Below are positions 1 through 61,506 of a stretch of 64,000 nucleotides of DNA, one piece after another. The position numbers and the translations under genes were made by a program. Numbering within the stretch: position 1 is the first letter of the stretch; the number at the start of each line of letters is the position of its first letter. Source of the DNA: Cyclobacteriaceae bacterium (GTDB taxonomy: Bacteria; Bacteroidota; Bacteroidia; Cytophagales; Cyclobacteriaceae); the NCBI GenBank assembly GCA_028285445.1, contig JANQPQ010000015.1:1-64000 (forward strand), written 5' to 3'. The notes under the pieces were generated by a model. It did no database searches and had not been told where the DNA came from. It saw only the letters and a list, made by a program, of their open reading frames with translations.

Positions 1-427
1 CTTTCTGAAAGTCGCCGGCAATTAGTTCGAAATCAAATACTTTGAAGAAGTTGCTATCGGCAAAAACGAAATTATCCGTTTTAAAATTCTCATCTTCAAA
101 CGAAATCACTACGTCTTCAAACCACGAGGCTAACCTTACTGACTCCAATACTTCCGGATACTCCGAAACCATAGTTGGTCCCATCAGACCAGATGTTTCG
201 TAGGTAAGCCTCTCCGTGCCCAAAGTTGTGTTTACATTTCGCTTATAGAGCCTGTATATGTTTTCCTTCTTACTGTGGAATTGATCATATTCCAACTCAT
301 CCAAGACAAATGTTACTGCTAACAGGGTACACGCAATGGCTATAGTAAGGCCCAGCATGTTTATGAGTAGATATGCCTTATACTTCAGCATATTCCTCAA
401 CATTACTTTTATGTAGTTTTTAACCAT
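1..427 (-). CDS. FtsX/MacB-like permease, N-terminal part (module I, first gene)
   Basis: This is a partial gene that runs off the left edge; 142 codons are visible. The protein begins MVKNYIKVMLRNMLKYKAY, followed by one membrane segment (about residues 19-43) and the start of a MacB-type periplasmic domain with the recurring pattern ...YDQFH...IYR...FPE-like...FADSNFFKVFDFELIAGD. It matches residues 1-142 of the other permeases in the window. The ATG at 427 is preceded by a predicted sigma-54-type promoter at 461-476, giving a leader of about 23 nt. It is divergent from the RR gene at 633, so it is probably the promoter-proximal gene of a third array extending outside the window. Whether the rest is intact cannot be seen. 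Confidence 0.9.
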   Translation of the reverse strand, partial: MVKNYIKVMLRNMLKYKAYLLINMLGLTIAIACTLLAVTFVLDELEYDQFHSKKENIYRLYKRNVNTTLGTERLTYETSGLMGPTMVSEYPEVLESVRLASWFEDVVISFEDENFKTDNFVFADSNFFKVFDFELIAGDFQK

Positions 428-460
428 GGAAGGGAAGTGTTTGGGTTTTTGACCACACTT

Positions 461-476
461 GTCAATGCTTATGCCA
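461..476 (-). promoter_or_regulatory. Predicted sigma-54-type promoter of module I permease array
   Basis: Read on the minus strand the element is TGGCATAAGCATTGAC. It has the -24 motif TGGCA and TTG at the -12 position with exact sigma-54 spacing, but A instead of the usual C after TTG. The predicted start of transcription is near 450, 23 nt before the permease ATG. The same TGGCAT-N5-TTG pattern recurs at 33239-33254 and 58647-58662, each before the first permease of an array. Confidence 0.55.
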
Positions 477-539
477 CAGTATTTAACTTGCTGAAAAACA
501 AATATTTAACCTCCGATTGCCATAACTATCTTTTCCGTA

Positions 540-586
540 GTGCCCATTTATGGAAAATAAAGTGCCCATTTATGGGCACTTTATTT
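540..586. promoter_or_regulatory. Direct repeat plus near-perfect palindrome, probable activator site of module I
   Basis: GTGCCCATTTATGG occurs at 540-553 and again at 562-575, 22 bp apart (two helical turns). The second copy is completed into a palindrome at 555-586, with 15-bp arms around a TT centre and a core of GTGCCCAT and ATGGGCAC. It lies between divergent genes, about 108 bp (palindrome centre) upstream of the predicted -12 element at 462. This position suits an enhancer site for the adjacent NtrC-type regulator. A hairpin or terminator role is less likely, because no gene ends here. Confidence 0.55.
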
Positions 587-632
587 CCTCATGCTTGGTA
601 TCTTAGGATGCAATTGATTAGGCAGGTCAAAA

Positions 633-2006
633 ATGAAAAAGCTCGCGGGTAACATACTCATCGTCGATGATGACGATTACATCCTTTTAACCCTAAGGAT
701 GTTCCTCGAACAACATTTCACATCAGTAATAACTATTAATAACCCCAACCAGATTTCCAACGCTTACGATGAAAGAAGCTATGATCTGGTTATTCTGGAT
801 ATGAATTTTAAGGAAGGTGAAACTTCCGGCGAAGACGGGTTGAGGTGGCTCGGCGAAATTCTCAAAATTGACGCCGATGCCAGTGTAATTATGATGACTG
901 CCTATGGCGGAGTCAACATTGCTGTAGAAGCAATTAAGCAAGGGGCAAAAGATTTTATCGTGAAACCCTGGGAAAATGAGCGACTACTGGCCACGGTAAC
1001 CTCCATCTACAACCTGAGCTCAGAGAAGAAAAATGTTCGCCAATTAAAATCCCAGCAGAAAGTTATCAACTCCACCCTCGATGAGCCATTTACCAATATC
1101 GTGGGGAATTCGGATGCAATTGAGACTGTTTTTAAGAGTATTAACAAGGTGGCCGCTACAAATGCCGAGGTACTAATTCTGGGTGAAAATGGCACCGGAA
1201 AAGAGTTGGTAGCTCGAGCTATCCATCGCAACTCCGAACGGAAAGACGGCGTGTTTATTAGCGTTGATTTGGGTTCTATCTCAGAGACTTTATTCGAGAG
1301 TGAACTCTTCGGACACAAGAAAGGAGCTTTTACCGATGCCAAGGAAGACCGTATTGGAAGGTTTGAAGCGGCCATGGGTGGAACCATTTTTCTTGACGAG
1401 ATTGGCAACTTGCCTATGGCTTTGCAGGCTAAGCTTTTAACGGTAGTGCAAAACAGAAAAGTAACACGCCTGGGCACAAACGACCCCATTAATATTGATG
1501 TAAGAATAATCTGCGCCACGAATAAGCCCCTGCTGGAGATGGCCAAAGAGGGAGAATTTAGGGAGGATTTGTTATATCGTATCAATACAGTGGAAATTGC
1601 TGTACCACCTCTAAAGGAGCGTATTGCTGATATACCTCTACTGACAGAACATTTTGTTCAACTTTTTGCCAGGAAATATGATAAAGAAGATTTAGAAATC
1701 AGCAAGGATGTATTCTCGACCCTGCAGAAGTACCCCTGGCCAGGTAATGTAAGAGAGTTGCAACATGCCATTGAAAGGGCTGTGATTATGACGGAAAACT
1801 CCTCCTTAAACTCCCAGGACTTTATGTTCCTTAGTGCTTCGGCCCTGGATGGTGACAAACCGCATGATTACAACCTGGAAAGCCTGGAAGAATGGGCGGT
1901 GAGAAACGCCATCAAGAAACACCAGGGAAATATTAGTCACGCGGCTAAAGAGCTAGGATTAAGCAGAGGAGCCATGTACCGTCGGATGGAGAAATATGGT
2001 TTATAA
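633..2006 (+). CDS. NtrC-type sigma-54-dependent response regulator (module I)
   Basis: This 457-residue cytoplasmic activator has three parts. The receiver (about 6-125) has acidic cluster D12-D14, phospho-acceptor D56 in LDMNF and VKPW near its end. The AAA+ ATPase (about 155-390) has Walker A GENGTGKE at 184-191. The C-terminal Fis-type helix-turn-helix (about 425-457) contains NISHAAKELGLSRGAMYRR. The sigma-54-contacting loop reads GAFTDA at 231-236 instead of the canonical GAFTGA, as in the other two RRs here. Its stop overlaps the HK start by 11 nt, so the two are translationally coupled and presumably cognate. The divergent permease array is the obvious target. The closest named relatives are AtoC/ZraR-like regulators. 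Confidence 0.93.
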   Translation: MKKLAGNILIVDDDDYILLTLRMFLEQHFTSVITINNPNQISNAYDERSYDLVILDMNFKEGETSGEDGLRWLGEILKIDADASVIMMTAYGGVNIAVEAIKQGAKDFIVKPWENERLLATVTSIYNLSSEKKNVRQLKSQQKVINSTLDEPFTNIVGNSDAIETVFKSINKVAATNAEVLILGENGTGKELVARAIHRNSERKDGVFISVDLGSISETLFESELFGHKKGAFTDAKEDRIGRFEAAMGGTIFLDEIGNLPMALQAKLLTVVQNRKVTRLGTNDPINIDVRIICATNKPLLEMAKEGEFREDLLYRINTVEIAVPPLKERIADIPLLTEHFVQLFARKYDKEDLEISKDVFSTLQKYPWPGNVRELQHAIERAVIMTENSSLNSQDFMFLSASALDGDKPHDYNLESLEEWAVRNAIKKHQGNISHAAKELGLSRGAMYRRMEKYGL

Positions 2007-3336
2007 AAACTTCAAGCTGAACATCATATTACGGCTGTTGCTGATGGCAATCAGTATTGCCGCGCTGCTGTATTTTGTCTTGATTACTGAACAGTATCTA
2101 CGCAGTGTTTACATCTTCGTATTCCTTATCGTTTTACTTGTGGAATTTATCTACTACGTAGATAAAACCAACCGCGACTTCACTTCCTTTCTACTTGCTA
2201 TTTTACAAAATGATTTCACCACGACCTTCTCTGAAAAAAGCAAAGGGAAGTCTTTTGAACAACTTTATTCCGCACTGAACCAGATTACCCAGAAATTCAA
2301 GAACATTAGCTCCGAGAAGGAGATGCAGTTTCTTTACCTCGAGACGCTGGTTGAGCAGATACGGGTGGGAGTTTTAAGCTTTGACGAAAAGGGAGATATC
2401 CATCTTATTAATGATGCCTTTAAGAACATAATCAACCGTCCTCATCTCAAAAATGTAGATGCCTTGGCCAAAGTTGACAAAAACCTGCTTGAGGTAATTA
2501 GGAATATTAAGCCGACGGAGAATAAACTGGTAAAGGTGAGTATAGATAATAAGTTGTCACAACTCTCAATTAATGCAGCCGAATTCAAGTTGCAGAGCGA
2601 ATACTTCAAACTGGTTTCTCTTCAGAATATCAAAAATGAATTGGAGGCCCATGAACTAGAAACATGGCAGAAACTTATCAGAGTACTTACGCATGAAATA
2701 ATGAATTCAGTAACACCGATTACCTCACTTACCGCTACTCTCCAGGACATTATTCAGAAGGAACGAGAAGAGCTGAAAACCAATGGGGAAGACAGTCTCG
2801 AAAACATTGCCGAAGGTTTAAGTGCGATAAAAAATCGTAGTGAAGGGCTGCAAACCTTTACCGAAGCCTATAAGGACTTAACGCGGATGCCACTTCCGGA
2901 ATTCCAAAAGACGGATTTATCAACAGTTTTTGGCAGAATCGAAAGATTATTTCAGGCCGATGCCAGTGAAAGGGATGTAGTGCTAACGGTCAATCAAAAC
3001 GTGGATAGAGAGGTACTAATAGACCCCGAGTTATTTGACCAGGTGCTAATCAATCTTGTGAAGAATGCTTTTGAAGCCGTTGAGGAGCAAGAGTTAAAAC
3101 GGGTATATCTCTCAGCCACTGAGGCTAACCAAAAAATAACCATCACGGTTAGGGATAATGGGCCAGGTATTGAACCTGACAAACTCGATAAGATTTTTAT
3201 TCCCTTTTTCACCACGAAGAAAAAAGGATCTGGTATTGGGCTAGCTGTTTCCCGACAGATATTGCAAATGCACAATGGCACTATCAATGTAGATTCGGAA
3301 GAAGAAGGTGGCACCACCGTTACTTTAGTTCTTTAG
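1996..3336 (+). CDS. Two-TM sensor histidine kinase (module I)
   Basis: This 446-residue inner-membrane kinase is predicted to phosphorylate the RR encoded just upstream. Two membrane helices (about 9-31 and 38-56) are joined by only about seven residues (TEQYLRS), so there is essentially no periplasmic sensor domain. A conserved stretch NRDFTSFLLAILQNDFTTTF follows, then a PAS-like region (about 105-215). The NtrB-type H box is LTHEIMNSVTPITS, with H233 as the likely phosphorylated residue. The ATPase domain has the N box around NLVKNAFEAVEE, DNGPGI and GSGIGLAVSRQ. The ATG lies inside the end of the RR gene. The 3' end overlaps the convergent LysR gene by 17 nt. The small loop suggests sensing through a membrane partner, plausibly a permease. 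Confidence 0.92.
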   Translation: MVYKNFKLNIILRLLLMAISIAALLYFVLITEQYLRSVYIFVFLIVLLVEFIYYVDKTNRDFTSFLLAILQNDFTTTFSEKSKGKSFEQLYSALNQITQKFKNISSEKEMQFLYLETLVEQIRVGVLSFDEKGDIHLINDAFKNIINRPHLKNVDALAKVDKNLLEVIRNIKPTENKLVKVSIDNKLSQLSINAAEFKLQSEYFKLVSLQNIKNELEAHELETWQKLIRVLTHEIMNSVTPITSLTATLQDIIQKEREELKTNGEDSLENIAEGLSAIKNRSEGLQTFTEAYKDLTRMPLPEFQKTDLSTVFGRIERLFQADASERDVVLTVNQNVDREVLIDPELFDQVLINLVKNAFEAVEEQELKRVYLSATEANQKITITVRDNGPGIEPDKLDKIFIPFFTTKKKGSGIGLAVSRQILQMHNGTINVDSEEEGGTTVTLVL

Positions 3337-4210: not shown

Positions 4211-4213
4211 TTA

Positions 4214-4265: not shown

Positions 4266-4311
4266 TAATTCTAAACTACATTGGCGGAAATTAAAAGAGA
4301 TCAATACTGAG

Positions 4312-6167: not shown

Positions 6168-6184
6168 ATTGATATGGTTTAAGA

Positions 6185-7184: not shown

Positions 7185-7199
7185 CGATTTAATATATTA

Positions 7200-7259: not shown

Positions 7260-8297
7260 CTATTTAGCCGGTTTAGCATACTGCGGATTCTGTAAGAGTG
7301 TGCTGTCAGTTAGGGTCTGTAGGAATGCTATCAGCGCTTGCCTTTCATCGCCGTCAAAGTTAATTCCTATGGAGCCATCGCTCGTTAAGATTGAATCTAA
7401 GGTTGGCGAGCTTTTCACACCAAATTCATAATGATCCAAGACCTTGTCAATGTGCCTGAACCGACCATCATGCATGTAGGGATGCGTAAGCATAATATTC
7501 CTCAGCGTTGGTGTTTTAAACTTCCCCAGATCTTCTTCTTTGTGTGTTATGCGCCGCCGACCGAGGTAAATACCTTCTTTGTCGGCAGAGAAAGTACTAT
7601 CCAAACCATTGTTATGAAAGGAATGATCTGTGAACAATGGCGGCGGGTGGCAAGGGGCGCATTTGCTCTCAAATATTTGTAAACCGCTTGATTCCAACTC
7701 CGTCAAAGAGGTCTCTCCTCGTTTCCATTGATCGTACTTAGCACCTGATGAAATAATTGTGCGCTGAAATTGAGCCAGAGCTCTAACCACGTACGCTGAC
7801 GATATAGAGTCAATCTCAAAGGCTTGATTGAACTTGCTTCTATATACAGGGTGATTATTGAGACGATTGACCATAGTATCCAGATTCATCGCCATCTCAT
7901 CAGGATGAGTAAGTGGTGAGAAGGCTTGAGATTCCAAATCCTTAGCTCCTCCGTCCCAAAAGAATTCCTGGCTCCATACCATGTTGACTAAACTGGGTGA
8001 ATGTCGCGTCAGCGGTTTCCTGGAATGGCCCATCATGCTAAGAGAAACGCCATCGGTAAAGGCCCGCTCCTGCTGGTGACAAGTGGCACAAGAGATGGTA
8101 CCTGCACGGGAAAGGATAGGGTCATAGAAAAGCTGGCGACCCAACTGCACGCCTTCCTCGGTGAGAGGGTTCCGTTCCGGAATATTAGTGACTTCCGGAT
8201 AATATGAGGGCTTCTCTAGCTCAAGGGCAGTGGGCCCCTGGTTATTACAGGCATAAAGAAGCCAAATCAGAAGAACATAGATTTGGCGGTGCCACAT
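7260..8297 (-). CDS. MbnH/MauG-like di-haem cytochrome-c peroxidase family lipoprotein
   Basis: This 345-residue exported enzyme has a short lipoprotein signal with lipid-anchor cysteine C17 (LLYAC). There are two c-type haem sites, C70-x-x-C73-H74 (CATCH) and C213-x-x-C216-H217 (CAPCH), plus the family motif THPYMHDGRF near residue 271. It sits 6 bp downstream of the MbnP-type gene. In methanotrophs the MbnH partner of MbnP is a di-haem enzyme that oxidises a tryptophan of MbnP to kynurenine, and the pairing here points to that role rather than to bulk H2O2 removal. It is the last gene of a four-gene minus-strand run. A classical peroxidase remains possible. Confidence 0.87.
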   Translation of the reverse strand: MWHRQIYVLLIWLLYACNNQGPTALELEKPSYYPEVTNIPERNPLTEEGVQLGRQLFYDPILSRAGTISCATCHQQERAFTDGVSLSMMGHSRKPLTRHSPSLVNMVWSQEFFWDGGAKDLESQAFSPLTHPDEMAMNLDTMVNRLNNHPVYRSKFNQAFEIDSISSAYVVRALAQFQRTIISSGAKYDQWKRGETSLTELESSGLQIFESKCAPCHPPPLFTDHSFHNNGLDSTFSADKEGIYLGRRRITHKEEDLGKFKTPTLRNIMLTHPYMHDGRFRHIDKVLDHYEFGVKSSPTLDSILTSDGSIGINFDGDERQALIAFLQTLTDSTLLQNPQYAKPAK

Positions 8298-8303
8298 GCA
8301 TCT

Positions 8304-9074
8304 TTATTGCTGTTGCACCACTAAGGTAATCATATCCAAATAGTTTTCAGCTACTAATTCTGCGTCAGGCTTTACAAATTTAACAGTACTAAGCTGCTGA
8401 AAATCAATAGGGTTGGGATTCTTGAATGCCTCGCTGAGATCTACATTGAAATTCAATGTCGCGTCTTTGTTATTAAAAAGGTCAAGTGACAGGCTGTACT
8501 GCAGTGTAGCAAAGTTTTCATCAAAGCCAATGTGAAACACCAAGGGATCAGGAGTACCATCGCCAGGAGCAAAATATTCCCCCTCCATCAAAAAGAACTT
8601 ATAACCTACATCCCAATTCCAGGCCATTTGGTTGTTAGGATCTAAATCTCCAAAGTTGTCGGTAGAAACATTGGTAGTTGGGTCCACACCGATTGAGAAT
8701 TCCAGCTGATCATAATTATCGGCCGGTACCTGCGATAAGTCTATTTGGAAGCTGTTGTTATCAATATCATATCTCACCAGGTGGTAGCTATTTTCCTCCA
8801 CGTATGCTGTGTTAGCCGCACTATTGATCAGCTTAAGATTACTAATGTAGAACTTGAAATCTGCCACGGTGAAATTCCCCACTCCTCCCGGGTTATCATA
8901 GCTGTTGGTAGCTATTTGCAGTGCTTCCGTTCCAACCATGGCGTTAAATGTCAGCGTTACGTCAGCCGGCGTATTATCCAGGCTTTCATCGTCGCAGGCC
9001 ATTACTACTATTGACATTGCTACTATTAGAGCAACTTGCCTGAAAGGTTTAGAAGGGATCCGAAAATTTCTCAT
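8304..9074 (-). CDS. MbnP-type copper-binding lipoprotein
   Basis: This 256-residue protein has a lipoprotein signal ending VVMAC (C27) and a beta-rich body matching the MbnP-like domain: VTLTFNAMVG near the start, FTVADFKFYISNLKL, then NNQMAWNWDVGYKF (M150, W152, W154) and VFHIGFDENF (H181). In characterised MbnP a tryptophan is oxidised to kynurenine by its di-haem partner and helps bind copper; W152 or W154 is the natural candidate here (inference). It is encoded between two MbnH-like genes, overlapping the upstream one by 26 nt and 6 bp from the downstream one, so the three are surely co-expressed. Confidence 0.85.
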   Translation of the reverse strand: MRNFRIPSKPFRQVALIVAMSIVVMACDDESLDNTPADVTLTFNAMVGTEALQIATNSYDNPGGVGNFTVADFKFYISNLKLINSAANTAYVEENSYHLVRYDIDNNSFQIDLSQVPADNYDQLEFSIGVDPTTNVSTDNFGDLDPNNQMAWNWDVGYKFFLMEGEYFAPGDGTPDPLVFHIGFDENFATLQYSLSLDLFNNKDATLNFNVDLSEAFKNPNPIDFQQLSTVKFVKPDAELVAENYLDMITLVVQQQ

Positions 9075-10143
9075 TGTTAATAAAGGTGTTGTCTGTTAGG
9101 GTTTTTAGAAAGGCTATTATGTCTTCTTTTTCTTGTTGTGTAAGATGCAGCTTTATCGGCTGGTTAGGAATAATGTCTTCATTGCTGGCCTCACGAATGA
9201 GCACGTCCAGCGTGCTACTTTCTACAATATTGTCATTGTAGTGATCCAACACTTCTTCCAAGGTATTAAAACGCCCATCGTGCATATATGGTGCCGTTAA
9301 TTCTATATTTCTTAATGTCGGAGCCTTAAATTTCCCCCTATCGGTGGGATTACCAGTGACCGCTTCTAAGCCTGGCCTCAAGTTCTGATCACTATCCAGG
9401 CCATTATTATGAAAACCATCGAAGCCGGTGGTAAATCCACTGGTTAAGAATTGACTGTGGCAATCTCCGCAATTCCCTCCGCGAATTCCAGCTTGGGCAT
9501 CGGGATGGGTAAAGAACAATTGCCTTCCTCTCAGTTCCTGGTCGGTAAACTGCTCCTCCCCTCGCAGTACTCTGTCAAATTTCGAGTCTGCTGAAATTAG
9601 CGTCCTCTGGAATTGCGCCAGTGCCTTGGCTAATCGATCAGCGGTTATTTCCTGGCTGCCAAAGGCGGCTTGAAACATTGGAGGGTAATCACCAATTGCC
9701 CTTAGTTTAGTAAGCGTTGCCGGAATTGATTGATTCATTTCCAGCGGATTCTCAATGGGCAACAGCGCCTGCTCTTCCAGGCTAGATGCCCTTCCGTTCC
9801 AAAAAAATCTGGTATTCCATAATTGGTTAGCTAAAGACATCGAACTAACCGGTAGTGGTGTTCCTGCAATTCCAACTGACAGTGCTAATCCATCGGTAAA
9901 TGCCAACTGCTGATCATGACAACTGCTACAGCTCACCGAATTATCAAGTGAAAGACGTTTGTCATAGAATAGCATTCTGCCCAGGGCCACCCCTTCGTTG
10001 GTAAGAGTGTTATCGGCAGGAACTTGAAAATCGCCAAAGTAAGATGGAGTCTCCAACTCCAATGGCGTTGGGTCCGGAATTACCCCCTCATCGTCGCAAG
10101 ACCAAAGGCTTGCTACCATTATCAGCACTATCAATCGTTGCAC
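9049..10143 (-). CDS. Second MbnH/MauG-like di-haem enzyme lipoprotein
   Basis: This 364-residue paralogue of the downstream di-haem protein has lipobox SLWSC (C16), haem sites C72-x-x-C75-H76 (CSSCH) and C225-x-x-C228-H229 (CGDCH), and TAPYMHDGRF near residue 290. Relative to its partner it carries an extra glycine-rich segment before the second haem (about 212-224) and a longer loop afterwards. Its C-terminus overlaps the MbnP start by 26 nt, implying coupling. Having two different di-haem enzymes around one MbnP suggests either a two-step maturation or a division of labour. An inverted repeat lies just upstream (10170-10220). Confidence 0.87.
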   Translation of the reverse strand: MQRLIVLIMVASLWSCDDEGVIPDPTPLELETPSYFGDFQVPADNTLTNEGVALGRMLFYDKRLSLDNSVSCSSCHDQQLAFTDGLALSVGIAGTPLPVSSMSLANQLWNTRFFWNGRASSLEEQALLPIENPLEMNQSIPATLTKLRAIGDYPPMFQAAFGSQEITADRLAKALAQFQRTLISADSKFDRVLRGEEQFTDQELRGRQLFFTHPDAQAGIRGGNCGDCHSQFLTSGFTTGFDGFHNNGLDSDQNLRPGLEAVTGNPTDRGKFKAPTLRNIELTAPYMHDGRFNTLEEVLDHYNDNIVESSTLDVLIREASNEDIIPNQPIKLHLTQQEKEDIIAFLKTLTDNTFINNEKFSDPF

Positions 10144-33317: not shown

Positions 33318-33358
33318 TGTATCACTTTCGTTACACAAATACGTATGTTTATGATACA
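33318..33358. promoter_or_regulatory. Probable activator dyad of module II
   Basis: TGTATCA at 33318-33324 and TGATACA at 33352-33358 are inverted around a centre at 33338, with a small ATACGTAT palindrome near the centre. The centre is 98 bp upstream of the predicted -12 base at 33240, as in module III. The half-site GTATCA is shared with the module III dyad. A short CGGTG/CACCG hairpin (33296-33308) lies between the dyad and the promoter. Confidence 0.5.
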
Positions 33359-38200: not shown

Positions 38201-38217
38201 GGGTACAGGTCAAGCGG

Positions 38218-39996: not shown

Positions 39997-40086
39997 CTAT
40001 TTGTGGTTTCGTGTGGTTTTGCAGGGAAAAAATGCGATTATTGCGTTGATTTTCTACCGCTGCAATATAACCAAATACAACTACCC

Positions 40087-46427: not shown

Positions 46428-46440
46428 GCTTTCTAGTTTG

Positions 46441-48846: not shown

Positions 48847-48898
48847 GTTGTTGGGTTTTGAGTTTTTATTCCTTGGGGGCAGCTATTCCTTATTTTTC

Positions 48899-51310: not shown

Positions 51311-51329
51311 TTTCGTAAACAGTTAACTC

Positions 51330-53693
51330 TTATTCATATCTCAGAGAATCAATAGGGTTGGCTCTAGCGGCCTTGATGGTTTGATAGCTAACGGTACCCA
51401 CAGCAATTATTATCGCCAACACACCCCCTACCACAAATGTCATGGGGCCTGGAGAAATTTTATAGGCAAAATCTGAAAGCCATAAATCTGTTGCGAACCA
51501 AGCAATTGGGATCGCAATCAAGAATGAAAACAGCACCAGAATCACAAAGCCCTTTGAGAACATGAGTACCAGATTAGACATTGTGGCACCCATTACTTTT
51601 CTGATGCCCGTTTCCTTTGTTCTTTGTTCCGTTACGAAAGATGCCAGCCCGAATAGCCCCAGGCAAGAAATGAAGATCGCCATAAAGGCGAAAACATTTG
51701 CAAGCTTACTTACGGTTGTCACACTGTTGTAGGCTCTCTGAAACCTATCATCCACGAATTGGTATTCGAACGGATACTCCTGCTCAAACTGATCAAATGT
51801 AGTTTTGATGCCTGCGATTGTGGCTTCGGTGTTATGGCCGTCAATCCTAACCATTACTTGCCAGGCGGCAGTGGGATTCAATTTTATTATAACCGGCTCA
51901 ATAGGACTGAACAACGATTGATGGTGGAAGTCCTTCACCACGCCCACGATTTCTCCAGGATTATCGTCCCAAAATTTTAAGCTCATCCCTATTGGATCTT
52001 CCACCTCCATCATTCTTACCGCCTCTTCATTCACCAGAAAATGATTGTATTTGTCATTGTATTCCTCAGGAAGATTCTTGCCTTCAACCACTTGGATATC
52101 AAAAGTCGATACAAACTGATGGTCAGTCTGTATAACATTGAAGTTAAAATCCTGTTCCTCCCCTTTACCAGGCCAGGTGGGGTCTGATGTTTGGTTGCCG
52201 ATGCCGATCGGATTTTGGTTCGTATATGTGAGTGAGCTTACCCCATTGATGTCCAAAATCAAATTATCAAAGACATCCTGCTTATCTAAGATGCTGCTGT
52301 ATACCGGCATTTGCAGCACATTATCTTTATTTATGCCCAGATCTTTCGTTTGGATAAACTGTATTTGCTGATAAATCACTACTGTAAAGATGATAAGAAC
52401 AATTGCCAGAGTGAATTGAGTAATCACCAGTACTCTGCGCAGGCCGCCCATCGTAGCTTTAGATTGGAACCGATTTGATAATGCCTGTACTGGCTTAAAT
52501 GATGAAACATAAAAGGCTGGGTAGCTTCCGGCGATTAAAGCTGTAACCACACTAATTGCCAGCAAGCTTGAAACGAATATGCCGCTTGTATAGGGCATGG
52601 TGATGGATTTACCGGTGATTTCATTAAAGACAGGCAGCAGCAAATCGGCCAAAGTTATTCCGGCGACTGTGGCCAAAATGGTAATAAACAGAGATTCACC
52701 AATAAATTGAACGATAAGGAAACCACGCCATGCACCTGACACTTTTCTGATCCCCACTTCGCGCGCCCTTTTCGCCGATCTTGCTGTCGACAGGTTCATA
52801 AAGTTGATACAGGCAATCAGAAGTATCACAACGGCGATAACGGAAAACATGCGTACATATTGGATTCTGCCAGTGGGTTCCCTGCCGCCGCTAAAATCAG
52901 AATACAGGTAGCTATCTTTAAATGAGTGCAGAAACAATTCCTCCTTCTCTGAATTTTCCTTGTGGGTTTGTATGAAATCGAAGATTTTTTCCTCAACCTC
53001 GCTCTTAGTGTGTCGTGGATCGATCTGTATGTAAGTCGCCAGATTATAATTACCCCAATGTTTCATCCAGGGTCTGGTGCGTTCGTATTCCAAATAATTT
53101 ATGAGAAAATCGAACTGCAAGCTTGAGTTTGTTGGAGGATCCTTGATGACTCCGGTGACAGTGAACCCGCTTTTACCTTCACGACCCCTAAGGGTTATGA
53201 TCTGCCCTAAGGCTGATTGTCCGGGAAAATATTTTTCTTCTAAGGTTGTAGTGATGACAATATTCTTCAGTTCTCTCAGTGCGATTTCAGGATCGCCAGC
53301 AATAAACTCAAAGTCGAACATTTCTGTGAAGGTGGAATCCACGAAGTACCCTCTTTCTTCGAATTTCACCTCACCATTCTGAACAAGAATACGCTGCGGA
53401 TATGTAACCCTCGTGATATTCGCAATCTCCGGAATTTCTTCTGCTAAAGCCGGAGCCAGCGGACCTTGGGTACTTTGCCAGATCTGGGTAGCGCTCAGGC
53501 CCAAGTCAACCATTATCCTGTAAATATTCCCTCCATTTTTATGGAATCGATCGTAACTCAACTCGTCAGCAATCCAAAGCGAGATAAGTACGAAACAAGA
53601 GATACCAACGGCCAAACCAGAGAGATTGATGGCCGAAAACACTTTGTGCTTGAGTAAGTTTCTGAATGCTATAGTGAGGTAACTGCGAATCAT
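51330..53693 (-). CDS. FtsX/MacB-like permease, module III gene 3
   Basis: At 787 residues this is the shortest intact permease and the only alpha-lineage member in module III. It has LIACINFMNLSTARS at TM2, KRAREVGIRKVSGA, linker KDLGINKDNVLQMPVY and FVTEQRTKETGIRKVMGA. Periplasmic signatures are KNIVITTTLEEKYFPGQSAL, where PGQ replaces the usual GDD, and LVNEEAVRMMEVEDPIGM. Despite its alpha body, its tail ARANPIDSLRYE matches its gamma neighbours. Its leader contains AAAACTCAAAAG about 35 nt before the ATG. It lies 67 bp after gene 2. Confidence 0.92.
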   Translation of the reverse strand: MIRSYLTIAFRNLLKHKVFSAINLSGLAVGISCFVLISLWIADELSYDRFHKNGGNIYRIMVDLGLSATQIWQSTQGPLAPALAEEIPEIANITRVTYPQRILVQNGEVKFEERGYFVDSTFTEMFDFEFIAGDPEIALRELKNIVITTTLEEKYFPGQSALGQIITLRGREGKSGFTVTGVIKDPPTNSSLQFDFLINYLEYERTRPWMKHWGNYNLATYIQIDPRHTKSEVEEKIFDFIQTHKENSEKEELFLHSFKDSYLYSDFSGGREPTGRIQYVRMFSVIAVVILLIACINFMNLSTARSAKRAREVGIRKVSGAWRGFLIVQFIGESLFITILATVAGITLADLLLPVFNEITGKSITMPYTSGIFVSSLLAISVVTALIAGSYPAFYVSSFKPVQALSNRFQSKATMGGLRRVLVITQFTLAIVLIIFTVVIYQQIQFIQTKDLGINKDNVLQMPVYSSILDKQDVFDNLILDINGVSSLTYTNQNPIGIGNQTSDPTWPGKGEEQDFNFNVIQTDHQFVSTFDIQVVEGKNLPEEYNDKYNHFLVNEEAVRMMEVEDPIGMSLKFWDDNPGEIVGVVKDFHHQSLFSPIEPVIIKLNPTAAWQVMVRIDGHNTEATIAGIKTTFDQFEQEYPFEYQFVDDRFQRAYNSVTTVSKLANVFAFMAIFISCLGLFGLASFVTEQRTKETGIRKVMGATMSNLVLMFSKGFVILVLFSFLIAIPIAWFATDLWLSDFAYKISPGPMTFVVGGVLAIIIAVGTVSYQTIKAARANPIDSLRYE

Positions 53694-53760
53694 GGTGTTA
53701 GTTTTTGGATGGAGGTGTTCTTTTGAGTTTTACCTTGAGGGTTGTCAATATTCGATTAAG

Positions 53761-56145
53761 CTATTCGTATCGGATAGACTTTATTGGGTTAGCTCTTGCT
53801 GCTTTAAGACTCTGCAGACTGATAGTTAGCAGGCAAATAACTAACACAGCAATAGCCGGAACTACCAGCAGCAGCCAACTAAGATCAATGCGTAGCGGGT
53901 AAGATTGCAACCAACCATCTATGAGATAGTAGGCCAAAGGCAAACCAAGCACAATGGCTATCCCTACCAGTTTCATAAACTCCAGGTTCAATAAGCCGAT
54001 GATACTACCATCCGAAGCACCCATCACCTTTCGAATGCCAATTTCTTTCATGCGCTGTATGGTTGAATACAGTACCAATCCGAAGAGGCCAATACATGCT
54101 ATAAATAGAGCCAGTGCTGAGAAGATGGTAAAAATGACGCCAAACTGTTTGTCACTCTTGTACTGCCTATCGAAGCTTTCGTCAAGAAAGAAATAATCAA
54201 AGGCATTCCCGGGAAACATCTCTGCATAAACCTCTTCTATGTCGGAAAGAAGCTGCTGGTACCTGGTAGTGTTAAATGCTATTGAAATGTGGTTAGAGGA
54301 TGCTCTATACAATAAGGCTAATGCGGGCTGTGCTCTTTTTACCGAAAGATGATGATAATTTGCATAGACCCCGATCACTTCTCTATCTCTTCCCCAAAAA
54401 CCCATGTGTATCAATTTCCCGATAGCTTCTTCAGGCGAATTAATACCTAGTCTGGCAAGTGCAGATTCGTTTAGGATTACACTGTTGCTGTAATCTCTTC
54501 CCTCCACATAAGCCTGACCGGCCAGCAGCTGCAGCTGGTATATATCCGCAAAGGTCTCATCAATACCCAGCATTTGCACATTAATACCCTCCTCCTGGTC
54601 CAGCAGCCTAATGGATGTCCCCCAGGTAATTTCTTTACCAGGAACACTACTTGAAAGCGTTATTCTCTCTATGCTACTTTTACTGGCCAATTGATTTTTG
54701 AACGAGACCAATCGGCTTGCAAATAGTGAGTCCCTAACTGCTGGTCCCATTACCACCAACTTGTTATCGAGGGCAATTCCCAGATTTGTCTGACGCATGT
54801 GGTTCACCTGCAAGTAAACCGTAAGTGTCAGGGCTATCAGCACTACTGAAACAGCAAACTGGAATATAACCAGTCCTTTTCGGAGGTCAAACTTCTTGAA
54901 TGACGCTGCACTGCTTCCTTTCAAAGCCCGGGTTGGCTTAAAAGCTGATTGAATGAAGGCCGGATACAAACCTGATAGAAGGGCTCCAATCGCGAGAATA
55001 CCAAGGAGCATAAGCCAAAAAGGAGATGGAAACGCAGGCATAATCAGGGAGCGGCCCACTAAATTTTCGAATCCGGAAAAAGTGGCCTGCACAATTGTAA
55101 AACCAACCACAGTACTGATGGTATTTACCACTACTGCCTCTAGACCAAACTGTGCAGCAACTTGCCTTTTGCTGGCACCAATGGATTTCCTAACGCCCAC
55201 TTCTTTCTCCCTTTTGGTTGATTGGGCAATTGACAAGCTGGTGTAATTGGCCCAGGCTATGATTAATATAAGAGCACCAACTGCCAATAGGAAGTAATTA
55301 GTCTTGGCGTCACCGTTGGTGCTTAATTCACCGGGCATGTTAGATTGAAGGTGAATACTATTAAGTGGCTGTAGTATATGACTGAACCCTTCCTCATCGG
55401 GGAATGTAGCTGCAGTATACTGGTTAACCATTTCCTGGAAGTCTGTTCTTTCAACACCGGGTTGCAGCTTCACATACTGGTAGTGGTCGCTCCACCTATC
55501 CATAAATTGATAGACTCTATGGCTCTCCCAGCTGCTATATGAGAAAAGTATATCGAAATTGAAATGAGAATTAGCAGGCATGTCGGCGAAGACCCCGGTC
55601 ACCTTATAAGTGTTGGTTCCATTTTGAAGCATCAATTTTCCAATTGGATTTTCTTCACCGAAATATTTCTTTGCAGTACTCTCCGACAGCACTACCGAGA
55701 AAGGTTGGTTAAGTAGATTCTCCCGATCGCCGCCTAAAAGTGGAAAGGAAAAAACCTTGAAAAATCCCTCTTCAGCAAAAATTGCTTTATCTAAAGAGTA
55801 GACCTTTTCATCGTAGGCCAAAACAAAATTGCCCATGATGCCAGACATATTAATGAAGTGCGCATAATCTACGACCTGAGGATATTGATCCCTAAGGTCT
55901 TTACCGACACTACCAAATGTTTTAACTCCTCCACTTATGCTACCATCGTTTTCAGTTTGGCTGGTTACCCGATAGATGTTCTCTGCGTCAATATGAAATG
56001 AGTCGAAGCTGAACTCAAAATTTACATAAAGGAATATCATCATGGCCGACCCCACTCCTATTGACAAACCGACAAGGTTTATCAAACTAAACACCCTGTT
56101 CTTTACCAGGTTGCGAATCGTTACTTTCAGATAGTTCTTGATCAT
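53761..56145 (-). CDS. FtsX/MacB-like permease, module III gene 2
   Basis: This 794-residue gamma-lineage permease starts MIKNYLKVTIRNLVKNRVFS. Landmarks are FSVVLSESTAKKYFGEENPI, NGDAKTNYFLLAVGALILI, AWANYTSLSIAQS (Thr-Ser replaces the usual Ile-Asn), first coupling-type motif KREKEVGVRKSIGA, linker TNLGIALDNKLVVMGP, VILNESALARLGINSPEEAI and second motif YSTIQRMKEIGIRKVMGA. The tail is ARANPIKSIRYE. It lies 11 bp after gene 1, and a 67-bp gap separates it from gene 3. Confidence 0.92.
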   Translation of the reverse strand: MIKNYLKVTIRNLVKNRVFSLINLVGLSIGVGSAMMIFLYVNFEFSFDSFHIDAENIYRVTSQTENDGSISGGVKTFGSVGKDLRDQYPQVVDYAHFINMSGIMGNFVLAYDEKVYSLDKAIFAEEGFFKVFSFPLLGGDRENLLNQPFSVVLSESTAKKYFGEENPIGKLMLQNGTNTYKVTGVFADMPANSHFNFDILFSYSSWESHRVYQFMDRWSDHYQYVKLQPGVERTDFQEMVNQYTAATFPDEEGFSHILQPLNSIHLQSNMPGELSTNGDAKTNYFLLAVGALILIIAWANYTSLSIAQSTKREKEVGVRKSIGASKRQVAAQFGLEAVVVNTISTVVGFTIVQATFSGFENLVGRSLIMPAFPSPFWLMLLGILAIGALLSGLYPAFIQSAFKPTRALKGSSAASFKKFDLRKGLVIFQFAVSVVLIALTLTVYLQVNHMRQTNLGIALDNKLVVMGPAVRDSLFASRLVSFKNQLASKSSIERITLSSSVPGKEITWGTSIRLLDQEEGINVQMLGIDETFADIYQLQLLAGQAYVEGRDYSNSVILNESALARLGINSPEEAIGKLIHMGFWGRDREVIGVYANYHHLSVKRAQPALALLYRASSNHISIAFNTTRYQQLLSDIEEVYAEMFPGNAFDYFFLDESFDRQYKSDKQFGVIFTIFSALALFIACIGLFGLVLYSTIQRMKEIGIRKVMGASDGSIIGLLNLEFMKLVGIAIVLGLPLAYYLIDGWLQSYPLRIDLSWLLLVVPAIAVLVICLLTISLQSLKAARANPIKSIRYE

Positions 56146-56156
56146 AGCTTGTGGGT

Positions 56157-58631
56157 TTACTCGTAGCGCAAGGCTTTTATCGGATTAGAGGCAGCGGCTT
56201 TCGTTGTTTGCACGCCGATGGTAATAGCAGTTATGGCTAATATCATGAATGCGGGCAAGGCAATTACCCACCATCCGAGGTCAATACGAAAGCTGTAGTT
56301 GCTTAACCACTGATTTAAGCCAAACCAAATCAGTGGAGACGCAACAACAATGGCGATGACAATTAATCGGATGAAGCTACGGGACAGTAGCACCACAATT
56401 ATCCAGTGGTCTGCTCCTAAGACTTTTCGAATACCAACCTCTTTAGTGCGCTGCACAATGGTGTATGACGAAAGCCCGAAAAGGCCCATCATGGCAATGA
56501 CAATGGCAAGCATTGAAAATGTGCCAAATATTTGCCCAAATTGCTGATCAGCCTTGTACTGAGCATCGAAGTTCTCATCCATAAAGAAATAATCGAAGGG
56601 AGCTTCTGGAAAAGATTGTTTCCATGAATTCTCCACAGTGGCAACGGCTTGCTTCACTGCTTCTCCCTTAGATTCAAAATCACCTTCAGGAATATTGAGC
56701 TCTATCGTATAGAAATTACTCCATATGCTTAGCACAAAAACCAGCGGTTGATAGTCGTTCCTCAATGATTTGAAGTGGAAATCTTTCACTACTCCTCTTA
56801 CTATTAGTGGTACAGTGAACATTCTATTTTCAACAACCTCGCCGATGGCATCTTCCGGCGAATCAAACCCTAGCATTTCAACCGCTCTTTCCGAAAGTAC
56901 TATATCGCCACGTGACCATGGGTTGTCTCCCTCCTGATAGAAGCGGCCCGCGACCAACTCCAAATCATAGACGTCCATAAAATCCTGGTCCAGGGCAATG
57001 TGGTAGAAGTAATCAGTTACTTCCTGCGTCTGGCCTTTGCGTTTGTATCCGCTTTGAAACCAGCTAATGTCCTTGCCCGGAATTGCGCTTGATGTCGTCA
57101 TGGCCAGCGCTTCAGGTTGTCTCAGTAATTCAGTTTTGAAAGTATTTACTGCATTTGTGGTTTCAGATCCATCTATGATATTGCCCGGAGGTGCGTTGAT
57201 TATTAACAAATCATCAACCTTCATACCCAGGTCCACATTCATCATATAATTAACCTGTCGATAGACAGTAATTGTTGTGGCGATCAGGCCCAATGAAATG
57301 AAGATTTGAAAAACAACAAATGACTTTCTCAACCAGATACCCCTGGTGCCGGTTTTCACTTTTCCTGATAAAGCTTGCAATGGTCTGAATGCGGAAATTA
57401 TAAATGCCGGGTAAAGCCCCGAGAGAACAGACCCTGTGATGAATACGCTGAGCAGGCCAACTAAAAACACGGGCTCAAGCCACATATTAATTGCGATCGG
57501 CTTACCGACTATACGCTCTGCATACGGACTAAGTAACTGGGTAATGGTGAAGGCTATAACTAACGCCATCAAACCTATCAGTACAGATTCGACCAGGAAC
57601 TGGCTAATGAGCTCTGCCCGGCCTGATCCTAATGATTTTCTAACACCTACCTCCTTGGCCCTTTCTACAGATCTCACTGTGGAAAGATTGATGTAATTGA
57701 TGTAAGCGATGGCCAGAACTATTATGGCCACAGCCAACAGTGCCTGTACCGTTAATCGGTCGCCGTTGGCTTTGAATTCAGCCACCAGGTGTGAGTTAAG
57801 ATGAATGTCTTCAAGCGGCTGCAAGTCCATTTCCCAGGTAAGGCTGCGGCTTTTTAGCTGCTCTCCTAAATTACGCTCTATAATAGCATCCATTTTTAAT
57901 TGCAGTTCTTCCTTTTCAAATCCGGGAGTCATTTGCAAATAGGTATAGTATCCGCTCCAGCCCCAGGAATTTGTTGAGCCCTCCGCTATGGCTTCATAAG
58001 TTTCTGTAGCTATTAAGAAGCTGAAATCAAAATGTGTATTCTCTGGCAGGTCAGCAATTACACCTACCACTTTAAGATTCATAACGCCAGTATTACCGCT
58101 AAAACTGATAACCTTACCTAGAGGGTCATCGGACTCAAAGTACTTATCAGACACCTCTTTGCTTACAATTACAGTGTTAGGTTCTGACAATGCGCTGCTG
58201 ATATCACCGGCGACTAAGGGAAATGAAAACATATCGAGAAAATCCGCATCAGCAAGGTAGATACCTGACTCATTGAACGACTTCCTTGTCCCGTCAGCTT
58301 CATGACTTACCAATAGGTTCTGGTGATCAAGACTATAAAATCGACTAAATCCCTCTACTTCAGGTATCTCCTCTTTGAAAGCAATTCCAAGAGCTGATGG
58401 CACCCCAGCGAAACGATCTTTTAATGCCCCACTTTCATAACGATCAACCTTCACTCGAAATACTTGATCCCCCTTGGGATGAAACTCATCGTAGCTATGT
58501 TCAAACAACACATATTGTAAGATGAGTAGGAACGCTGCCATGCCAATAGCCAGGCCTAAAATGTTAATGCCGGAAAACACTTTGTTTTTCAGCAGGTTTC
58601 TCAGTGCAATCAGTAAGTAATTCTTTGCCAT
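56157..58631 (-). CDS. FtsX/MacB-like permease, module III gene 1 (promoter-proximal)
   Basis: This 824-residue gamma-lineage permease starts MAKNYLLIALRNLLKNKVFS. Starts 27 and 39 nt further upstream (58658, 58670) lie in or beyond the predicted promoter at 58647-58662 and add residues absent from every paralogue, so 58631 is preferred. Landmarks are NTVIVSKEVSDKYFESDDPL, AYINYINLSTVRS, ERAKEVGVRKSLGS, linker VDLGMKVDDLLIINAP, IVLSERAVEMLGF and YTIVQRTKEVGIRKVLGA, with tail NPIKALRYE. If the promoter call is right the leader is only about 5 nt, nearly leaderless. Confidence 0.91.
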   Translation of the reverse strand: MAKNYLLIALRNLLKNKVFSGINILGLAIGMAAFLLILQYVLFEHSYDEFHPKGDQVFRVKVDRYESGALKDRFAGVPSALGIAFKEEIPEVEGFSRFYSLDHQNLLVSHEADGTRKSFNESGIYLADADFLDMFSFPLVAGDISSALSEPNTVIVSKEVSDKYFESDDPLGKVISFSGNTGVMNLKVVGVIADLPENTHFDFSFLIATETYEAIAEGSTNSWGWSGYYTYLQMTPGFEKEELQLKMDAIIERNLGEQLKSRSLTWEMDLQPLEDIHLNSHLVAEFKANGDRLTVQALLAVAIIVLAIAYINYINLSTVRSVERAKEVGVRKSLGSGRAELISQFLVESVLIGLMALVIAFTITQLLSPYAERIVGKPIAINMWLEPVFLVGLLSVFITGSVLSGLYPAFIISAFRPLQALSGKVKTGTRGIWLRKSFVVFQIFISLGLIATTITVYRQVNYMMNVDLGMKVDDLLIINAPPGNIIDGSETTNAVNTFKTELLRQPEALAMTTSSAIPGKDISWFQSGYKRKGQTQEVTDYFYHIALDQDFMDVYDLELVAGRFYQEGDNPWSRGDIVLSERAVEMLGFDSPEDAIGEVVENRMFTVPLIVRGVVKDFHFKSLRNDYQPLVFVLSIWSNFYTIELNIPEGDFESKGEAVKQAVATVENSWKQSFPEAPFDYFFMDENFDAQYKADQQFGQIFGTFSMLAIVIAMMGLFGLSSYTIVQRTKEVGIRKVLGADHWIIVVLLSRSFIRLIVIAIVVASPLIWFGLNQWLSNYSFRIDLGWWVIALPAFMILAITAITIGVQTTKAAASNPIKALRYE

Positions 58632-58646
58632 ATCTGTTCGTATCTT

Positions 58647-58662
58647 TCCAATATGCATGCCA
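58647..58662 (-). promoter_or_regulatory. Predicted sigma-54-type promoter of module III permease array
   Basis: On the minus strand the element is TGGCATGCATATTGGA. It has TGGCATG at -24 and TTGG at -12 with exact spacing and, as in module II, G where the consensus has C. Predicted RNA start is near 58636, just before the ATG at 58631. Confidence 0.6.
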
Positions 58663-58727
58663 TCCGACATAACCCGTTATATATCAGATATTTACATATA
58701 GAATATACTTGAAGTGAACACAAAACC

Positions 58728-58765
58728 GTGTCAATTTGATACGATAAATTGTATCAACATGACAC
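58728..58765. promoter_or_regulatory. Two-tier perfect dyad, probable activator site of module III
   Basis: Outer half-sites GTGTCA (58728-58733) and TGACAC (58760-58765) and inner half-sites TTGATAC (58736-58742) and GTATCAA (58751-58757) are arranged with exact symmetry around 58746.5, with an 8-bp centre. A further pair, GAACACAA (58716-58723) and TTGTGTTC (58777-58784), surrounds it slightly off centre. The dyad centre is 98 bp upstream of the predicted -12 base (58648), a typical enhancer distance for sigma-54 activators. GTATCA is shared with the module II dyad. Confidence 0.6.
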
Positions 58766-58808
58766 AAACCCTATAATTGTGTTCGATCAATAAAATAGTA
58801 TATAGAAT

Positions 58809-60170
58809 TTGAAAGGAAGAATTCTTATAGTTGATGACGATCAGGATGTGCTTTACACCGCAAGGCTAATATTAAAGGAGCATTTCACGTCTGTTGACAC
58901 CATTAGCAACCCTGCTGACATCATTCCAATTTTGAATAAAGAGCATTTTGACGTGGTACTGCTCGATATGAATTTTGTTCAAGGCGCGACAAGTGGTAAG
59001 GAAGGCCTCGATCTTTTAGAGAAAATATTGAAGGCAAAGCCTAACACCAAGATCATTATGAATACTGCCTATGGCGATATCGATCTTGCGGTTACAGCGA
59101 TGAAAAATGGGGCTATTGATTTTTTGGTCAAACCATGGGAGAAGGAAAAGCTAATTTCAACTGTTTCCGCTATCTGCAAACTCAGCCAATCTGAGCAAGA
59201 AGTAAGTCACCTGAAGTCCAAGCAGAAAGAACTACTGAAAGACACCAACAACCACTATGTGGAGATAGTTAGTAAAGCCCAGTCGATGGAGCCAATTTTA
59301 GAGACTATCGAGAAGGTGGCAAATACCGATGCCGACGTGCTGCTTTTAGGGGAAAATGGTACTGGTAAAGAAATAGTTGCTCGAGATATACACCGACGCT
59401 CATCCCGAGCACAAGAGGCGTTTATCAAAGTAGACCTGGGCTCAATAACAGAAACGCTATTTGAGTCGGAGCTATTTGGACATAAAAAAGGTGCTTTTAC
59501 CGATGCCAAGGAAGATAGGCCGGGAAGATTTGAGATTGCGACTGGTGGCACCCTGTTCCTGGATGAGATTGGCAACTTAACGATGCCCTTACAGGCCAAA
59601 TTGCTCTCGGCATTGCAGAACCGGCAAATTACCAGGGTGGGAGCCTCTGAGCCCGTTCCTGTTGATATTCGCCTAATATGCGCCACAAACAAACCCATCT
59701 ATTCGATGGTAGATGAAGGGGAGTTCCGTCAAGATTTACTCTACAGAATGAATACTGTGGAATTGCGGCTGCCACCACTGCGGCAAAGGCAAGAGGATAT
59801 TAGTCTACTAACTGATCATTTCCTCAAGGCCTACGCTTCCAAATACCAGAAGGGTAGCCTTAGAATGCAGAACGGAGTACTTAAGAAATTGGAATCGTAT
59901 CGGTGGCCTGGCAATATCAGAGAGCTTCAACATGCAGTGGAACGAGCGGTAATTATGAGTGACGGCAAGGAACTTAAATCTGCGGATTTTCTATTGACGC
60001 CGAAAAAGACTACTAGCGCGCCTTCTTCATCACTTAAAATAGAAGATAGAGAGAAAGAAGCTATTGAACATGCTTTGGAAAGTTGCCACGGCAACTTAAC
60101 TAAGGCCGCTGTTGAATTGGGCTGGGGCCGAAGTACGCTATACAGAAAAATGAAAAAGTATGGCCTCTGA
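58809..60170 (+). CDS. NtrC-type sigma-54-dependent response regulator (module III)
   Basis: This is a 453-residue activator. The receiver begins directly after the start (MKGRILIVDDD), with phospho-acceptor D53 in VLLDMNF. The AAA+ domain has GENGTGKEIVARD and sigma-54 loop GAFTDA (228-233). The Fis-type HTH contains NLTKAAVELGWGRSTLYRK. Translation must begin at TTG 58809: an in-frame stop lies 6 nt upstream (58803-58805) and no ATG or GTG precedes the receiver. Its stop overlaps the HK start by 11 nt, exactly as in module I. The divergent six-permease array is the probable target. Confidence 0.92.
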   Translation: MKGRILIVDDDQDVLYTARLILKEHFTSVDTISNPADIIPILNKEHFDVVLLDMNFVQGATSGKEGLDLLEKILKAKPNTKIIMNTAYGDIDLAVTAMKNGAIDFLVKPWEKEKLISTVSAICKLSQSEQEVSHLKSKQKELLKDTNNHYVEIVSKAQSMEPILETIEKVANTDADVLLLGENGTGKEIVARDIHRRSSRAQEAFIKVDLGSITETLFESELFGHKKGAFTDAKEDRPGRFEIATGGTLFLDEIGNLTMPLQAKLLSALQNRQITRVGASEPVPVDIRLICATNKPIYSMVDEGEFRQDLLYRMNTVELRLPPLRQRQEDISLLTDHFLKAYASKYQKGSLRMQNGVLKKLESYRWPGNIRELQHAVERAVIMSDGKELKSADFLLTPKKTTSAPSSSLKIEDREKEAIEHALESCHGNLTKAAVELGWGRSTLYRKMKKYGL

Positions 60171-61506
60171 CCGATTCCGACTGCGTATTGTCTTGCGCAT
60201 TGCCTTAATACTGGCAATGGGTTATGCTGCCATCTATGTGCTTACCCAAACTCATTTTTGGCTGGTATCATTCTGGTTGGTGTTATTTACAATTATCGCC
60301 ATCTGGGAACTCATACGTTATTTGGAAAGGTCAAAGCGCGAACTCAGCAACTTCCTTGTATCAATTCAGCAGGAAGACTTTTCTACAACTTATCCTGAAA
60401 AAAGTCAGAATCAAGCTGATTTTGATATTCATCGAGCATATAATCTTATTAACAGGGAGTTTCGAAAAATTCGTAGGCAGAAGGAATCAAATTACCACTA
60501 TTTGCAAGCCGTGGTAGAACACACGGGCGTTGCCATGATCTGCTATGACGCAGAATCGCAAGAGATCCAGCTTGCTAACAAGGCTGCCAAAGAGCTCTTC
60601 AATAAGCCTTACCTGCGCAAAGTCGAAAACTTCGATAATATTAACCCTGAATTGACTCAGATTATTAAAAGACTAAAGTCTGGTGAGCGCGAATTATTTG
60701 ACCTACAGGGGGGGACCGATCTCAAAACCTTGTCGATCATGGCTAAGGAGTTAAGGCTTGAAGAGAGACTCTATAAGCTAGTCTCATTTCAGGATATTAA
60801 ATCTGAGTTGGAGGAGCAGGAAGTACAATCGTGGCAAAAACTGATCAGGGTGCTCACCCATGAGATTATGAATTCTGCAATACCAATTTCTACCCTGATC
60901 TCTGTTATCAACGAAAAATTAGAATCGAACGGCAAGTCATTTAGTGATTTAACCACTGAAGATGAGGACGACCTGCGAGGTGGTTTGAAAACAATTGAAA
61001 ACAGAAGTAAGGGACTGATAGATTTTGTAGAATCCTATAAAACTATAACCAAACTACCTAAGCCTGCTTTTGAGGAGATTAAAATTGAAGAGCTTTTTTC
61101 ACGAATCTCAACCCTGCTTACGCCGGCCCTGAACCATGAGAATATTACGTTTACAGTTTCAAACCCAAAAGAAGATTTAATACTAAAGGCGGATGCCAAA
61201 ATGATTGAACAAGTACTTATCAACTTAATTACTAATGCCAAGGATGCAGTATTAGAAATGGCTAACCCAAGGATCAAAATGCGCGCGCAAGAAGCTGAGG
61301 GCAAAGTTGTAATTACTGTAGCGGATAATGGCAAGGGGCTGGATAAGGAAACGCTGGAGAATGTTTTTGTGCCTTTCTTTACCACCAAAAAAACCGGGTC
61401 TGGTATTGGGCTTAGCCTATCAAGGCAGATTATGAAAATGCATCGGGGTAGAATTACCGTCAACTCGGCACCAGGCGAAGGCGCCGTGTTTGCTTTGGAA
61501 TTCTAG
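60160..61506 (+). CDS. Two-TM sensor histidine kinase (module III)
   Basis: This 448-residue kinase has helices at about 9-29 and 36-54 with a loop of about eight residues (TQTHFWLV), then KRELSNFLVSIQQEDFSTTY. A PAS-like region (about 108-215) precedes LTHEIMNSAIPISTLISVI with H234. In the H box, Ala-Ile replaces the Val-Thr/Ile-Thr of the other two kinases. ATP-binding motifs are EQVLINLITNAKDAVLE, DNGKGLDKETL and GSGIGLSLSRQIM. It overlaps the RR gene by 11 nt. Its stop directly abuts the stop of a convergent lipoprotein gene. It is probably the dedicated kinase of the module III RR. Confidence 0.92.
   Translation: MASDRFRLRIVLRIALILAMGYAAIYVLTQTHFWLVSFWLVLFTIIAIWELIRYLERSKRELSNFLVSIQQEDFSTTYPEKSQNQADFDIHRAYNLINREFRKIRRQKESNYHYLQAVVEHTGVAMICYDAESQEIQLANKAAKELFNKPYLRKVENFDNINPELTQIIKRLKSGERELFDLQGGTDLKTLSIMAKELRLEERLYKLVSFQDIKSELEEQEVQSWQKLIRVLTHEIMNSAIPISTLISVINEKLESNGKSFSDLTTEDEDDLRGGLKTIENRSKGLIDFVESYKTITKLPKPAFEEIKIEELFSRISTLLTPALNHENITFTVSNPKEDLILKADAKMIEQVLINLITNAKDAVLEMANPRIKMRAQEAEGKVVITVADNGKGLDKETLENVFVPFFTTKKTGSGIGLSLSRQIMKMHRGRITVNSAPGEGAVFALEF

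Follow-up and report, generated by a model that had tools for sequence, protein, structure and literature searches.

We report that a 64-kb window (positions 1 to 64,000 of contig JANQPQ010000015.1, hereafter C18, beginning at its first base) in the genome of a Cyclobacteriaceae bacterium (GCA_028285445.1; 5.48 Mb in 57 contigs) carries three modules, in each of which a plus-strand pair comprising an NtrC-type response regulator (RR) and a short-loop histidine kinase (HK) diverges from minus-strand genes for duplicated MacB/FtsX permeases of ~800 aa. Each module is likely to be an insulated sigma-54 switch for its own set of type VII ATP-binding cassette (ABC) permeases. The sequence-level evidence consists of gene order, sigma-54 boxes, operators whose letters track the RR recognition helix, units conserved in other genera, and an ATPase-coupling motif that the permeases have kept. 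Duplicated FtsX/MacB permeases make up several percent of some Bacteroidota genomes and have no assigned role. Here, specific sensors, regulators, and operators can be assigned to a subset of them, and these assignments offer direct handles, with regulons that can be separately induced, deleted, and assayed.

In module 1, the N-terminal 142 aa of the RR-proximal permease (2-427, minus strand) are followed by the RR (633-2006, plus) and the HK (1996-3336, plus). Module 2 comprises nine intact duplicated permeases (11338-33232, minus; the first start codon is more likely at 33214), an RR (33391-34761, plus), and an HK (34826-36184, plus), and module 3 comprises six intact duplicated permeases (43983-58670, minus), an RR (58809-60170, plus), and an HK (60160-61506, plus). 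The start of the RR-proximal permease of module 3 is more likely at 58631 because its promoter lies at 58649-58662. These coordinates and our domain scans agree with an earlier note on this DNA (the original prediction), which described three RR-HK pairs back to back with minus-strand permease arrays. Its counts of nine and six permeases were also borne out, but the additional remnant that it listed was not recovered when all collected permeases were searched against the masked window by tblastn at 1e-3. We found neither an ATPase gene nor an adaptor gene in the window, and no ATPase gene in or adjoining its three modules. A PADLOC search returned only generic AAA/ABC matches and no defence system. 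A kinase gene of another family (HisKA type, 42971-43981) is convergent with the last module 3 permease, at a distance of 1 base.

The array that had been called partial does include a cut permease, and it is cut because the contig ends there. Contig C20 (78,943 bases) terminates inside a minus-strand permease without an N-terminus, with three more permeases downstream (locus L001). The C18 fragment corresponds to aa 1-141 and the C20 fragment to aa 152-796 of one ortholog from another genome; that ortholog likewise occupies the RR-proximal position in its own, orthologous module. Since the two fragments cover a single ortholog and C20 adds three permeases, we infer that array 1 holds four members, the C18-C20 join being deduced in this way rather than sequenced. 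Arrays 1, 2, and 3 would then hold 4, 9, and 6 permeases.

All three window RRs contain a receiver, a sigma-54 AAA+ domain, and a Fis-type helix-turn-helix, each with Pfam matches above cut-offs, in keeping with the NtrC type. The domain scan identified an HATPase domain in the window HKs. In addition, each of the genome's seven HKs of this family carries a pair of transmembrane (TM) helices (at about aa 6-30 and 31-56) separated by a loop of a few residues, and the earlier description of a short-loop kinase is therefore apt. The genome has a single rpoN gene.

Our comparative counts come from eighty loci from named genomes, Fulvivirga marina and Splendidivirga corallicola among them, and stretches from relatives; since some loci reached the set from the same genomes by two routes, these counts are not all independent. 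Among 67 divergent RR-linked regions, the strict sigma-54 box TGGCAY-N5-TTG occurred on the array strand in 32, against 0.13 expected from dinucleotide shuffles and 2 on the opposite strand. A looser box was found in 45 of the regions (1.4 expected; 6 on the opposite strand). Upstream of the boxes lie two NtrC-like dyads with a centre spacing of about 20-23 bp. These read GTCCG-N4-CGGAC plus CGTTCA-N4-TGAAC in exporter-type regions, and TGTnnCA-N3-TGnnACA twice with a 6-bp gap, or module-specific variants thereof, in array-type regions. Operators were scored by clade-specific motifs and shuffles, generic dyad-pair scoring being too weak for many regions.

Array-facing boxes and dyads are present in all three window gaps, where a promoter and a dyad had been predicted, the dyads of module 2 being imperfect. 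The module 1 box TGGCATAAGCATTG (463-476, minus) lies 49 bp ahead of the array ATG, and the paired operator (540-579) consists of GTGCCCATTTATGGGCAC (562-579) and GTGCCCATTTATGGAAAA (540-557), with similar letters in the module 1 orthologs L042, L046, and G015_C12. Module 2 has the box TGGCATTGCTTTTG (33241-33254, minus) and the operator region TGTATCATAAACATACG..TGTAACGAAAGTGATACA (33318-33358), the dyads of which are clearer in the orthologs L162 and L099. In module 3, the box TGGCATGCATATTG (58649-58662, minus) is accompanied by the paired operator TGTGTCATGTTGATACA-N6-CGTATCAAATTGACACG (58727-58766).

As read from the sequences, the operator letters co-vary with the RR recognition helix, both between modules and inside one clade. 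Module 1 and its orthologs share the letters GTGCCCAT..ATGGGCAC and the helix SRGA[ML]YRRM (LSRGAMYRRM in the window RR); module 3 combines TGTGYCA..TGATACA with GRSTLYRKM (WGRSTLYRKM in the window), and a further module of this genome, on contig C4, combines TGTTTCA..TGAAACA with GRTTLYRKI. The module 2 helix is TRTALYRRL (LTRTALYRRL in the window), the operators of its orthologs read TGTATCR..YGATACA, and exporter RRs have TR[ST]SLYRR. Within the module 2 clade, the helix TRTALYRR occurs with TGTATCR or GTAACG and the helix TRATLYRK with AT-only sites such as TGTTTAATAATTAAACA. Of the sequence evidence for insulated, dedicated switches, this co-change is the strongest. Together with the array-facing boxes, the paired operators, and the orthologous units in another genus described below, it favours the earlier proposal of a dedicated switch for each array. 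The operator-helix pairs also constitute a natural data set on the insulation of paralogous NtrC-type regulators.

The genome contains another permease class, which carries a prefix domain (NF038404) and lies downstream of PadR regulators. A length of at least 850 aa was found for 20 of 21 PadR-linked permeases, compared with 0 of 45 permeases from RR-linked exporters and 3 of 64 from ATPase-less arrays linked to an RR. The PadR-linked arrays belong to the same superfamily of permeases and form a second class by regulation. The original prediction expected arrays to come with an RR-HK pair, and this holds by half: many arrays in the same genome follow PadR, but they are built from the prefix-domain type. 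Arrays of three or more permeases with PadR and permease prefix domain 2 occur in L009 (4086-19999), L010 (10268-18472), L012 (8619-16768), and L005 (5158-18622).

Operators were also found at permeases that adjoin no RR. With up to 3 mismatches allowed, the tandem array-type motif has five sites in the genome (reversed control, 0), every one directly upstream of a permease, and three of them precede single permeases unlinked to any RR (on C49, C24, and C48). The permease at C24:184368-186764 is preceded by a module 1-type site and a sigma-54 box. An operator pair with at most 3 mismatches precedes 9 of 53 unlinked unprefixed permeases against 0.2 expected (L225 being doubtful by position), and none of 26 prefixed permeases. 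Loose sigma-54 boxes precede 7 of the 53 (one, at -312, is doubtful) versus 0 of the 26. The RRs thus probably act beyond the neighbouring array, with about ten unlinked permeases carrying matching operators, and we infer from the operator letters which RR would serve each single permease. The control of its own array by each RR, as originally envisaged, is supported by sequence, while that control is probably not exclusive.

The window permeases scanned each have two MacB_PCD and two FtsX matches, i.e., an ADOP-like architecture with both halves in one chain. An AlphaFold2 model of one permease (mean predicted local distance difference test score, 81) likewise displayed two halves. Its structural matches were, in order, YbbAP, MacB, LolCDE, and BceAB, all with modest TM-scores; the top match, 9ge6 (YbbAP), had an E value of 2.8e-19, a TM-score of about 0.45, and 12% identity. 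The coupling motif ExGxRK..G of the FtsX cytoplasmic loop is as conserved in both halves of the ATPase-less arrays as it is in ATPase-linked exporters. Given this retention, it is most likely that the permeases continue to work with an ATPase, which they would probably borrow in trans. The ATPase candidates are DarD-like. The best of them, C46:63822, lies beside a DarC-like adaptor, although the DarC-like and DarD-like matches on C46 are below curated cut-offs. The term orphan permeases therefore suits the gene order, but the conserved coupling motif and a DarD-like ATPase encoded elsewhere speak against it. Contig C46 also encodes, at L002 (1889-6964), a permease close to a TolC-like protein and an ATP-binding protein, which are a possible outer-membrane partner and second ATPase.

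On this basis, we propose that the membrane-embedded HK, having almost no periplasmic loop, would relay a signal to its partner RR. The RR would bind its own dyad pair about 90-130 bp ahead of the array and contact RNA polymerase-sigma-54 at the -24/-12 box, and might thereby switch on the array and a small number of single permease genes at other loci with the same operator. Since the HK has no periplasmic sensor, its input probably comes from the membrane or the transporter, by analogy with Bce modules (PMC10314905). The permeases would most likely pair with an ATPase encoded at another locus, perhaps together with an adaptor, and the DarD/DarC-like pair on C46 is one candidate. In that arrangement, they may serve as interchangeable transmembrane subunits for the clearance or export of lipids or envelope-active compounds. 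A bolder version, which we offer only tentatively, envisages a shared-motor repertoire in which dozens of interchangeable permeases, grouped in regulons with their own kinase, regulator, and operator, would use one or a few common ATPase/adaptor units, such that transcription swaps the specificity of an envelope machine. In either form, the ATPase-less arrays allow motor sharing among ABC permeases to be put to the test.

Several observations weigh against this proposal. The sigma-54 contact loop reads GAFTDA in all three window RRs (633-2006, 33391-34761, and 58809-60170) instead of the canonical GAFTGA; as this is one letter off, RR function was judged from the promoters instead. Many regions scored no higher than shuffles when all dyads were tested, and the module 2 operator in the window is itself imperfect. 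For about 40% of the RR-HK pairs collected, no adjoining permease operon was called, although most of these belong to a separate clade and the class calls are conservative, a small intervening open reading frame yielding a "no permease" label at L140, L157, and L158. Finally, only two facts speak for ATPase sharing, the conserved coupling motif and an ATPase gene elsewhere in the genome.

The arrays could instead belong to MacAB/Dar-type exporters of the usual kind, with adaptor and ATPase encoded elsewhere and only the number of paralogues being unusual, an account that we consider doubtful. Adaptor-ATPase-permease operons commonly lie opposite RR-HK pairs of this family, both in Bacteroidota and in metagenome-assembled genomes of Zixibacteria, KSB1, Rhodothermota, and Acidobacteriota, and the C46 copy in this genome has such a neighbourhood. 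Thus, when relatives were searched for the layout of the original prediction, array modules did recur in other genera, but across the relatives from several phyla the pair normally faces a complete exporter. However, when 116 RR+HK pairs were placed in a tree, the permease-only ones, 22 in number, all fell inside one 34-row group (support 100), and this ATPase-less clade is conserved with its arrays across genera. Together with the operators common to single permeases elsewhere, this points to a stable derived arrangement.

It is unlikely that the array permeases act as sensors or mechanical transducers, their large periplasmic domains binding ligands and the short-loop HK reading them in the membrane in a BceS-BceAB-like but ATP-free manner. 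The lack of a periplasmic sensor in the HKs and of ATPase genes in the arrays would fit such a role, as would the use of an FtsX-type permease as the sensor for an intramembrane kinase in Bce modules (PMC10314905). Yet Bce sensing itself requires a functional ATPase (PMC10314905), the coupling motif is kept in both halves at exporter levels, and a single kinase would need to read 4-9 different permeases.

The original prediction also spoke of an amplified system. The proximity of three modules inside 61 kb and the tandem arrays might suggest a recent local triplication with tandem amplification in this lineage, but we find this very improbable. Array members in the window are merely 29-36% identical to the first permease, and the three RR-HK pairs belong to three different subclades, each with partners from other genera. 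Moreover, a genome of another genus (G015) has orthologs of modules 1, 2, and 3 and of the C4 module on four separate contigs. In that comparison, 17 of 20 array members had their best match in the corresponding array (5.5 expected), and the permease tree agrees. Orthologous units on separate contigs and the agreement of the trees indicate that RR, HK, and array were inherited together and did not arise in a local burst, so amplification as a recent event is not supported. With the same modules and matching operators present in other genera, the units are an old, co-inherited, and probably insulated regulatory system and not a chance cluster.

Our first-look candidate counts gave about 172 duplicated permeases in the 5.48-Mb genome, or roughly 7% of it, the highest number among the relatives searched (others, 3-117). 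Seven close RR-HK pairs were found in the genome: the three in the window and those on C4 (two permeases), C24 (one permease), C46 (an adaptor, an ATPase, and four permeases), and C14. Although so many permeases might produce adjacency by chance, we regard this explanation as refuted, since six of the seven pairs face a permease operon (five directly and one via adaptor and ATPase genes; binomial P of about 1e-6 to 1e-8 given ~172 permeases), the layout recurs across phyla, and sigma-54 boxes and operators are present. The C14 pair (L007, 10875-13602) adjoins no exporter and is a member of a widespread separate clade of such pairs.

We file the modules as a new form of type VII ABC system under two-component control and not as ADOP, Dar, or Bce members, because the defining features of those groups were tested and not all were found. 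The window permeases share the MacB_PCD/FtsX fold with MacAB-TolC and the darobactin exporter DarBCD, DarB being also a duplicated permease, and the C46 module has the DarC-like adaptor and DarD-like ATPase. However, the window arrays differ in having neither adaptor nor ATPase, many permeases per regulator, and sigma-54 control, and every model scored under its curated cut-off, the window permeases reaching 112-157 bits with the DarB model (cut-off, 700). ADOP permeases of Acidobacteria (TIGR03434) align over the full length, have duplicated MacB_PCD-FtsX units, and often occur in many copies; in 2024, 28 and 33 ADOP-annotated copies were reported for Dyadobacter genomes (PMC11573002). Nevertheless, the 14 window permeases scanned reach 243-315 bits against a cut-off of 622, and the literature that we found describes no RR-HK link for ADOP. 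BceRS-BceAB of Firmicutes also combines a short-loop intramembrane kinase with an FtsX-type permease bearing a large extracytoplasmic domain, whereas the window modules have an NtrC-type sigma-54 RR, duplicated permeases in arrays, and no adjoining BceA-like ATPase. E. coli YbbAP-TesA, the top structural match of the model, has a single-chain duplicated type VII permease and a separate ATPase but is not in an array, and we know of no two-component pair associated with it. It extracts hydrophobic compounds (PMC12646458). A 2025 promoter survey reports sigma-54 promoters enriched before COG0577/FtsX-like permeases in Bacteroidia (PMC12316311), and the passages considered describe no RR-HK pairs, arrays, operators, operator-helix co-change, or trans permeases. 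The literature searched likewise yielded no description of RR-HK-array modules, their operators, helix-operator co-change, or trans regulons.

Two other gene clusters lie between the modules. At 7260-10143, an MbnP-family protein (8304-9074) is encoded between two di-haem cytochrome c peroxidase/MauG proteins, forming an MbnP/MbnH-like cluster. Between modules 2 and 3 (36300-41997) are genes for a GH109-like oxidoreductase, a sodium-symporter-like protein, a nucleotidyltransferase, and an APH-type kinase, which may represent a sugar salvage cluster.

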